NCBI GenBank assembly: GCA_020054035.1
Contig: JAGVLY010000024.1
Location: forward strand, 1-32,034
Source: Bacteroidia bacterium
GTDB taxonomy: Bacteria; Bacteroidota; Bacteroidia; SXHM01
DNA length: 32,034 nucleotides
Direction: 5' to 3'
The translations under genes and the position numbers were made by a program. Positions 23,256 to 25,262 of the stretch are shown piece after piece; the first letter of the stretch is position 1, and each line of letters starts with the position of its first letter. The notes beneath the pieces are model-generated. The model was not told the origin of the DNA and searched no databases. It saw only the letters and a program-made list of their open reading frames with translations.

Positions 23256-23384
23256 TTACATCCCAACTTCGTCACCACTAATAATATGAGTAGGTGAAGG
23301 TTGTGCAGTTGCAGTAGTGTTGCTAGAGCCGCTTCCAACTAATGTTGAAACTGCGATAATGATGGTGGTAATTGCTGAAATCAT
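23256..23384 (-). CDS. 42-residue micropeptide, copy 1
   Basis: This ORF is too short for the track. ATG at 23384, TAA at 23256-23258. The peptide starts with a hydrophobic stretch (MISAITTIIIAVSTLVGSG), then a Ser/Thr/Ala segment (SSNTTATAQPSPT) and ends HIISGDEVGM. It is 39/42 identical to copy 2 located 170 bp away. In the 14 codons that differ between copies, 11 are synonymous and 3 conservative (A/T, V/I, T/S), which is strong evidence of translation under purifying selection. The N-terminus lacks a basic residue, so it may be a membrane anchor and not a classical signal peptide, although ATAQ would suit signal peptidase I. The upstream AAAAACAAACACC leader is shared with copy 2. Function unknown. 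Confidence 0.8.
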   Translation of the reverse strand: MISAITTIIIAVSTLVGSGSSNTTATAQPSPTHIISGDEVGM

Positions 23385-23425
23385 GGTGTTTGTTTTTTTA
23401 AGAGTTAGTAATTGATTATTTATTT

Positions 23426-23554
23426 TTACATTCCAACTTCGTCTCCGCTGATAATGTGAGTAGGTGAAGGTTGTGCAGTTGCTGAAGTGTTGCTTGAACC
23501 GCTTCCGATTAATGTTGATACTGCAATGATGATGGTGGTAATTGTTGAGATCAT
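23426..23554 (-). CDS. 42-residue micropeptide, copy 2
   Basis: ATG at 23554, TAA at 23426-23428. It is the same length as copy 1 and carries the same C-terminal HIISGDEVGM. The differences are Thr4, Ile16 and Ser24. The 41-bp spacer between the copies is much less conserved than the coding parts apart from the leader just before the ATG, as expected for two genes and not a bulk repeat. It is the promoter-proximal copy and faces away from the 518-residue protein gene across a 151-bp AT-rich intergenic stretch, so shared or coordinated regulation is possible. No TAnnTTTG match was found there. Confidence 0.8.
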   Translation of the reverse strand: MISTITTIIIAVSTLIGSGSSNTSATAQPSPTHIISGDEVGM

Positions 23555-23705
23555 GGTGTTTGTTTTTTGAGGTTTGTAATAAAGTTTAATTGGGTGCTTT
23601 TAGTTTTTTAGTTGCACTTTAGTTTGGTCGTTTATCGAATAGCATGTAAATTGTAGCCGACTATTCCAAAAAAATAACTATAGTGAAATCACCCTGAAAG
23701 CCGCG

Positions 23706-25262
23706 ATGCGAGAGGAAAACATACAACACCTGAAGCACATTGTTGACGCACTCAATAAAAATGAGAAAGAGGTTCTTGTTGAATACCTCAAGGCATTTGA
23801 CAGCCGCTCAAGTGGCTACAAGCCAAAGACTCTAATCATTTTAGACTTGTTGTTAAAAAACGATGACTTATCGATAATCAATAAGTATTTGAAGAAGAAA
23901 TTCGGGGCTAAGTCGGAAGATGCACTACGAATGATGATGTATCGCCTGAAAGAAAAAATAGGCGAAAGTTTAGTGTTGGACGTAAATATTATGCGTGAAG
24001 GGGTCTACAGTGAACTTTCGCAGGCACGTGCAAACATTGCGAAGAAAAAAATCATTGCACTTATTTACACATCAAGAGGAATAGCACATGAAACCCTTGA
24101 GTTGTATGATAAGGTAATTTCTCTGGCAAAAAAATTTGAGTTCTATAACGATCTGATAGAGGTGTTGATGTATAAGCAGCAACACGTAGGAATTAGGGAA
24201 GGGAAAAAAGCATATAACAAGCTTACAGAAGAAATCAACTTCTATGAAAAAAGCCGCACTGCAGCAAATGATGCAATAAAGGCATACTATGAAGTATCTA
24301 TTAACTGGGGCTTTAAAGGACTGAACAGAAATGTTCCCGATCCGGGGTATATTACTTTTCTTGAAGATAAACTCTCAAAACTCAAAAAGGACTTTGAAGA
24401 GACTTCCTCCGCTTTGGTTGGTTATTACTACTATACTATTAGTGTAGAATATAATCAGGTTCTTCATTTTGGAAAAAAAGCCAGTGAGTATTGTAACTAT
24501 CTGGTTGATCTGGTAAAAAATAATCCTTCCATTTATTTGAAACTAAGATTAGGAAACGTTTACCTTAATTACAGTCAGAATGAATTATTCAATTATGAAT
24601 TTAATTCAGCTTTACAAAATGCATTGGAAGGAAAGAAGTGTTTCAATACCGGCACCTATAATTACAACAACAGTCTTGAACTTGAATTTTATGCAAATTT
24701 CTACTCCGGTAATCTGAAGGATGCTACTACTACGATTGAAACACTTATTCAAAACACAAAAACAGATAAAAGCGAATTCTCTACTGCAAAGCGACATTAC
24801 CTCTTAGCCTGCACCTATTTCGCGCAGAAACAATTTATCAAAGCAAATCGCACCTTACAGTTTACTTCATCGGCCGAAAAAGACAAAGAAGGCTGGAACA
24901 TCGGTATGCGTATTTTCAATATTATGAATACAGTAGAAAATGCTCAGTATGACCAAGCCGATTTACTGATTATGAATTTACGCCAGTTCATCAAAGAAGC
25001 ACTGAAACTCAAATTTGTTCCCGAACGCGATAAAATCATTCTGGAAATACTGCTTGAACTTAGAAAACAAGGCTATGATTTTGAGAAAATAGTTAAAACA
25101 AAGCATCAGCAATTGGAACAACTTGCTAATGTTAAAGGAAACCACTCATGGCAAATTCAATCACCTGAACTTATTGTGTTCCATCGCTGGGTAGTTGCAA
25201 AGGCAAAAGAAAAATTTTATGAGCCTGTTTATAGAATGGAAGTAGTAAACAGTATTGACTAA
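23706..25262 (+). CDS. Large all-helical, probably TPR-like solenoid protein
   Basis: A 518-residue cytoplasmic protein with no signal peptide or membrane segment. Residues 1-105 are highly charged and helical (ALRMMMYRLKEKIGESL), possibly a separate N-terminal domain. Residues about 110-450 consist of repeated amphipathic helices with Tyr/Phe/Ala spacing (SRGIAHETLELYDKVISLAKKF; GKKASEYCNYLVDLVKNN; RHYLLACTYFAQKQFIKANRTL), typical of degenerate TPR or related solenoids. I do not recognise the family. It is divergent from two micropeptide genes, a layout reminiscent of peptide-binding TPR regulators, but no helix-turn-helix is evident. Its stop overlaps the stop of the convergent gene at 25259 by 4 nt. 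Confidence 0.8.
   Translation: MREENIQHLKHIVDALNKNEKEVLVEYLKAFDSRSSGYKPKTLIILDLLLKNDDLSIINKYLKKKFGAKSEDALRMMMYRLKEKIGESLVLDVNIMREGVYSELSQARANIAKKKIIALIYTSRGIAHETLELYDKVISLAKKFEFYNDLIEVLMYKQQHVGIREGKKAYNKLTEEINFYEKSRTAANDAIKAYYEVSINWGFKGLNRNVPDPGYITFLEDKLSKLKKDFEETSSALVGYYYYTISVEYNQVLHFGKKASEYCNYLVDLVKNNPSIYLKLRLGNVYLNYSQNELFNYEFNSALQNALEGKKCFNTGTYNYNNSLELEFYANFYSGNLKDATTTIETLIQNTKTDKSEFSTAKRHYLLACTYFAQKQFIKANRTLQFTSSAEKDKEGWNIGMRIFNIMNTVENAQYDQADLLIMNLRQFIKEALKLKFVPERDKIILEILLELRKQGYDFEKIVKTKHQQLEQLANVKGNHSWQIQSPELIVFHRWVVAKAKEKFYEPVYRMEVVNSID

Follow-up and report, generated by a model that had tools for sequence, protein, structure and literature searches.

Two short open reading frames lie in tandem on the minus strand of a stretch of Bacteroidia DNA (hereafter the window, meaning the whole 32,034 nucleotides analyzed), and they raise the question of whether frames this small are genes and, if so, what their products might do. 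We found that they belong to a widespread and apparently undescribed two-gene pair in Bacteroidia, in which small peptide genes stand divergent from a gene for a protein with a predicted tetratricopeptide repeat (TPR) fold.

Peptide genes of the window and its genus

The peptide genes and their parts are as follows.

23426–23554, minus strand: peptide gene copy 1, 42 aa plus stop, MISTITTIIIAVSTLIGSGSSNTSATAQPSPTHIISGDEVGM; open reading frame with dN/dS 0.055 against copy 2 and homologues in every genome of the genus
23256–23384, minus strand: peptide gene copy 2, 42 aa plus stop; open reading frame, same evidence as copy 1
23429–23455, minus strand: C-terminal nonamer IISGDEVGM, codons 34–42 of copy 1, proposed ligand; kept across the genus though the middle is variable or deleted, with a related motif in other families
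23259–23285, minus strand: nonamer IISGDEVGM, codons 34–42 of copy 2, proposed ligand; same basis as in copy 1
23555–23568, minus strand: A-rich leader of ribosome-binding type of copy 1 (AAAAAACAAACACC type); an identical leader type precedes every copy in all genus genomes
23385–23398, minus strand: A-rich leader of copy 2; the repeat unit reaches 14 nt upstream of the ATG

Both 42-residue frames (43 codons with the stop) reported in a preliminary description of this DNA are present, carried on a repeat of 143 nt with 89% identity. Their separation of 170 nt, as given there, is the distance from start to start, and the true gap between the genes is 41 nt. Our recount of the codons returned the same figures: 14 differ, 11 of them synonymously and 3 nonsynonymously (dN 0.033, dS 0.59, ratio 0.055), and the tail HIISGDEVGM is indeed identical in the two copies.

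Profile and single-sequence searches of related genomes (G-numbers denote genomes of the window's genus, G000 being the window's own; L-numbers denote partner loci) recovered the peptide in seven out of seven genomes of the genus. The description as a tandem pair fits the window, which has two copies, but not the genus, where copy number ranges from one (G005) through three (G006) to four (G002 and G003), with at least two copies in G004 and at least one in G001, where the contig ends inside the array. Homologous frames change length in frame only. The peptides of G003 and G004 are 29 aa long (MIATISTILVAASILVGTSAIITTDQTGM or an I/V variant) and lack, in frame, the middle of the 42- to 45-aa versions. 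Throughout the genus, the peptides retain a hydrophobic N-terminus and a tail of the form II[TS]x[DE][EQ][TV]GM, and conservation extends to the 14-nt leader ahead of the start (AAAAAACAAACACC type). A cleavage after ATA that would release a 15-residue peptide, as had been proposed, is not supported: relatives have other residues at that place (SSSASS, SSSSSS), and the segment is missing from the 29-aa versions in G003 and G004.

Ratios of dN to dS within arrays were 0 to 0.11, except for one pair with just five differing codons. The search for homologues and the dN/dS comparison that had been suggested as a check came out in favor of the earlier claim of purifying selection: homologous frames recur at the same place in each of the six remaining genomes, and their length changes are all in frame. 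These results support the window peptide genes as conserved protein-coding micro-genes under purifying selection, without a known family, in agreement with the preliminary description, which matched them to none.

The peptide differs more between species than between copies in one genome. Between the window and G002, dS was 0.59 and dN 0.31, compared with dS 0.59 and dN 0.03 between the two window copies, so that between-species dN was about 10 times within-genome dN at similar dS. The contrast of silent and replacement codons within versus between genomes gave p = 0.002–0.017 in three non-independent Fisher tests on small numbers, and the second array type of the genus showed a weaker contrast. 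Gene conversion would also erase silent differences, and we therefore interpret the pattern as selection that seems to hold all copies in one genome to one peptide while the peptide diverges between species.

Genomic setting and shared intergenic region

Wherever both sides are visible, the array is flanked by bioD (convergent) and by a gene for a 518-aa protein (divergent); G001 and G004 show only the 518-aa side. The array is divergent from the 518-aa gene in all seven genomes. Since it and bioD are convergent and it does not lead into any gene, an attenuator leader peptide was rejected, as was a biotin link (bioD and bioF neighbors) as a general trait, because neighbors differ in other families. 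The preliminary description overlooked the divergent TPR-fold gene at 23706–25262 and with it the recurrence of the pair across the class.

23555–23705, no strand: 151-nt region between the peptide array and the 518-aa gene; identity with the six other genus genomes 77–91%

Identity at fourfold sites of the 518-aa gene, in the same comparison of the window with the other six genomes, was 50–57%. The 151-nt stretch is thus more conserved than silent sites next to it and is under strong constraint; it is a probable divergent control region. A scan for sigma-70 promoters and terminators, which was not made for Bacteroidota promoters, found none, and Rfam, which covers known RNA families, had no family at the locus.

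These observations bear on whether the array could encode small hydrophobic toxins that disturb membranes and are controlled by the TPR protein or by an antisense RNA. Type I toxin peptides (Ldr, Ibs) and phenol-soluble modulins form tandem arrays of short hydrophobic peptides, and the arrays described here resemble those of the Ldr/Ibs type. They differ in having a conserved polar tail, kept while the middle is free, and a protein partner, with no antisense RNA family found in Rfam at the locus. PADLOC anti-phage defense models had no match for five receptors. In addition, the array occupies one chromosomal place in the genus, and the partner was absent from the plasmid and phage collections searched. 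We consider a toxin very improbable on these grounds. A mobile or viral origin was rejected, as searches of viral contigs, phages, and plasmids gave no match.

The partner protein

23706–25262, plus strand: 518-aa TPR-fold protein, proposed peptide receptor; AlphaFold pLDDT 91, pTM 0.85, Foldseek best matches TPR proteins including Rap
23706–23990, plus strand: helical domain at the N-terminus of the 518-aa protein, residues 1–95; pLDDT 85 when modeled alone, PDB search without a match at E < 0.4
24012–25127, plus strand: TPR superhelix of the 518-aa protein, residues 103–474; AlphaFold, Foldseek, and Pfam TPR matches in the family

The AlphaFold model, built with 67 aligned sequences, confidently predicts a helical N-terminal domain followed by a TPR superhelix. 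Fold and profile searches with the 518-aa protein returned TPR proteins, including LGN/Pins, Tom70, RapF, and RapI; in the profile search, RapJ (E 2.7e-4) ranked below designed TPRs and GPSM2. Pfam TPR matches occurred in up to 32 of 67 family members, and the 518-aa protein itself had no Pfam family above the cut-off and no NCBIfam or PADLOC match. Partner length is mostly 480–550 aa.

The 25 Pfam families seen most often in the 67 partner members did not include a helix-turn-helix (HTH) domain, and the N-terminal domain alone gave no significant fold match. A DNA-binding N-terminus is unsupported, as no DNA-binding fold was recognizable. We note that profile and fold searches with this domain (23706–23990) gave weak matches to death-fold proteins (pyrin, DED, ASC), all with E above 0.4; the domain could adopt a death-like fold judging from these matches, which we do not claim.

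Pairing across the Bacteroidia

A narrow profile detected the partner family in 56 of 295 Bacteroidia genomes and a wider one in 91 of 396 sampled genomes, about a quarter, with up to seven copies per genome. We searched for small frames with a rule (ATG start, A-rich leader, 20–130 aa, hydrophobic N-terminus, upstream and divergent) that misses and adds some cases. Outside the genus, 30 of 61 homologues had such a frame, compared with 1.4 in shuffles and one of 61 on the sense strand. The same rule applied to unrelated control genes yielded one in 49, after removal of a control gene that turned out to be a family member. On looser inspection, we also saw peptides of 22–24 aa, such as MSTIIEILKALGIINPDNTGGG, in tandem at L080 and L105, as well as Sec-type proteins about 100 aa long at L074, L087, L097, and L113.

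Carriers differ in their N-termini. One branch has K/R-rich Sec-type signal sequences, judged by eye, which make export plausible for that branch. Basic residues are absent from positions 2–12 in 34 of 37 short-type peptides, and Sec export is not evident for the window type, whose N-terminus has none of the basic residues that mark a classical Sec signal.

A second paralogue in the window's genus is likewise accompanied by tandem small genes in the same orientation, which encode a different peptide (MATLLAILLSLNLITS...IIWETNEK; MATLLAILLSLNLITSAQSKTITQDQAVSVAKANGVNTSNIIWETNEK). This second pair has two or three peptide copies, spaced by 185 nt. In a more distant partner subfamily, some of whose members come from other classes, a clear peptide is absent in most cases, though L119, L122, and L126 have one. 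Overall, no peptide was found for 64 of 145 homologues under the detection criteria used, which we interpret as either incomplete detection or peptide-free operation in part of the family.

On a tree of the 145 partners, peptide presence and type were clustered, with 33 changes compared with 59 in shuffles, a difference to which near-copies contribute. Clades with DIIVDE, IIWE-type, Sec-type, and window-type tails were apparent. The labels are imperfect: at L069, L167, and L168, which have Sec-type peptides, the label was taken from a spurious or over-long first frame, and the calls at L088, L092, L100, L118, L119, L134, and L161 are doubtful.

Constant pairing and the co-segregation of peptide type with receptor clade would also be expected of an intracellular accessory or scaffold subunit that is never secreted, for example a cofactor completing the superhelix. 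We regard such a subunit as quite unlikely, given the high variability of the peptides' middle and length (22 to 126 aa), their repeated tail units, and the Sec signals of one large branch.

The conserved tail and repeated units

Peptide middles were unrelated between families, while C-termini were alike. The tails include IISGDEVGM (window), IITTDQTGM, IVDVEDTGL, IIGLEETDF, IVDLEQDGM, IIGTDGNGGW, and DIIVDEIAH, and those of Sec-type carriers include IIGHEDLPY, IISHEDILF, and IVGHDDIPL. The motif I[IV]..[DE] near the C-terminus, fixed before new loci were fetched, occurred at 12 of 30 earlier loci (0.4 expected) and five of 17 new loci (0.35 expected). A looser form, picked afterwards, occurred at 21 of 30 (1.0 expected) and 10 of 17 (0.8 expected), respectively; both sets of counts overstate independence, as Sec-type carriers share ancestry and the loci are phylogenetically non-independent. 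The motif is missing from the peptides at L062, L066, L072, and L096.

Several precursors repeat a short unit. Three tandem genes at L183 each contain three DIIVDEIAH units, and the nine copies differ at silent positions only. Six DIIVDEIAH units occur at L197, five FDQTDG units within one precursor at L195, and four IGTEQSGWG units over three genes at L060. Short repeated units with silent drift have the look of processed peptide-signal precursors, and this is the strongest single hint that the tail may be the product.

A tail at the extreme C-terminus, a hydrophobic N-terminus without basic residues, and a TPR partner are also consistent with a tethered docking peptide, in which an uncleaved N-terminus would sit in the inner membrane and the tail would recruit the TPR protein with no intercellular signal. 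The acidic EEVD tails of Hsp70 and Hsp90 bind in this way in the TPR groove of co-chaperones; the acidic C-terminal tail is a point of likeness, but the systems are not homologous, and the carrier here is a stand-alone small peptide. We consider docking unlikely. The hydrophobic stretch is often just about 12 residues, the 22- to 24-aa versions can be amphipathic with E/K inside (L080), and release is a better fit for the Sec-type carriers and for precursors that repeat the unit three to five times.

A proposed ligand and receptor

The reading we prefer, and hold to be slightly better than an even bet, is a module of peptide ligand and TPR receptor in which the precursor is exported and its tail is released as a signal bound by the partner. 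The small genes would be translated into precursors in which a dispensable linker joins a hydrophobic N-terminus to a C-terminal ligand roughly nine residues long, IISGDEVGM in the window. The precursor would most likely be exported and processed to release the tail, which, after re-uptake, could serve as a cell-to-cell or self-sensing signal. The divergent gene would provide a cytoplasmic TPR superhelix that binds the tail, and binding may alter the action of the TPR protein, with effects that may include expression from the shared control region. The dose may be raised by having tandem gene copies and by repeating the unit within a precursor.

Several lines of evidence point to a ligand and receptor: the divergent arrangement of all seven genus arrays, the pairing of a second paralogue with a different tandem peptide, the excess of divergent small frames across the class over shuffles and controls (30 of 61), and the clustering of peptide presence and type on the receptor tree. 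The recurrent C-terminal motif and the units repeated with silent codon changes argue for it as well, as do the maintenance of one peptide among same-genome copies at dS 0.59 with higher dN between species and the Sec-type signals in related carriers of one branch. Additionally, the TPR superhelix is a peptide-binding fold, and Rap receptors were among the matches. Arguing against it are the 64 of 145 homologues with no detected peptide, the window N-terminus lacking basic residues, the partner N-terminus with no DNA-binding fold, and the absence of the tail motif from some peptides.

Comparison with known peptide signaling

In streptococci, SHP precursors adjoin the Rgg receptor gene, and the active peptide is C-terminal. 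The module described here is alike in placing a short hydrophobic precursor by a receptor gene and differs in receptor family, peptide sequence, and Gram-negative host. The Rgg-SHP precursors are described as very short and hydrophobic (PMC7564271).

We also compared the module with the RRNPP/RRNPPA systems of Firmicutes (Rap-Phr, PlcR-PapR, NprR-NprX, Rgg-SHP, ComR-ComS, and AimR-AimP; PMC10075063, PMC9765709). Both have an adjacent pair of a TPR receptor and a short precursor with a hydrophobic N-terminus and a ligand thought to be C-terminal, several paralogous pairs per genome, and fast peptide evolution (PMC10075063, PMC9765709). The module differs in belonging to another phylum, with an outer membrane, and in its head-to-head genes, tandem arrays, and multi-unit precursors. 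Of the features that define RRNPP systems, the partner has the TPR receptor fold (AlphaFold superhelix; Foldseek LGN, RapF, and RapI) and the adjacent receptor and propeptide genes. At 518 aa, the window protein lies slightly above the receptor range of 250–500 aa (PMC10075063), and neither an N-terminal HTH nor a Rap/NprR three-helix bundle was found in the partner family. Sequence kinship with Firmicutes receptors did not go beyond generic TPR similarity. By analogy, the module may work like RRNPP, but it fails as a member, since no HTH or Rap-type N-terminus and no such kinship were found, its candidate receptor slightly exceeds the length range, and it occurs in another phylum.

The module could be a pheromone system specific to Bacteroidota, with an origin independent of RRNPP, that combines multi-copy secreted precursors, a roughly nine-residue C-terminal signal that crosses two membranes on uptake, a new TPR receptor class, and several private channels per genome; we put the chance of this a little short of even. 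The RRNPP_detector paper describes systems in Firmicutes and mentions Bacteroidetes just as a gut phylum (PMC10075063), and the RRNPPA structural paper does not mention Bacteroidetes. Bacteroidota are dominant in guts, soils, and waters, yet our open-access literature searches, which excluded preprints, found no peptide-receptor signaling described in them. For about a quarter of the sampled Bacteroidia genomes, the module supplies a candidate ligand and receptor specified down to the residue, and it points to numerous small genes that may be passed over by gene callers.

Additional arrangements at partner loci

The window's own genome contains two distant partner paralogues with no evident peptide, at G000:C27:108–1553 (L115, at a contig start) and G000:C84:5401–5931 (L116). 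Two or three tandem partner genes with few visible peptides occur at L100:2101–6794, L101, and L109. Two different families have a conserved protein (MELRKLPNTDAERLQALKVAYQKAVTTPKENLAFSSDMMKYLKPF..., about 119 aa) beyond the peptide array of the second pair type (L107:1391–1825, L108:4728–5087, L111:4926–5285, and L187:2540–2893); it is possibly a third partner of that pair type. At L068, about 610–780 nt upstream of the partner on the minus strand, a frame of four 14-residue repeats (NTTGFITNTIVSET) lies beside a Sec-type peptide gene. Upstream of the partners at L069, L165, and L172, a Sec-type peptide gene is followed by a second small gene, whose product has a similar Y(L/F)..KGY domain and a long membrane segment at its N-terminus, placing anchored and secreted versions next to each other.
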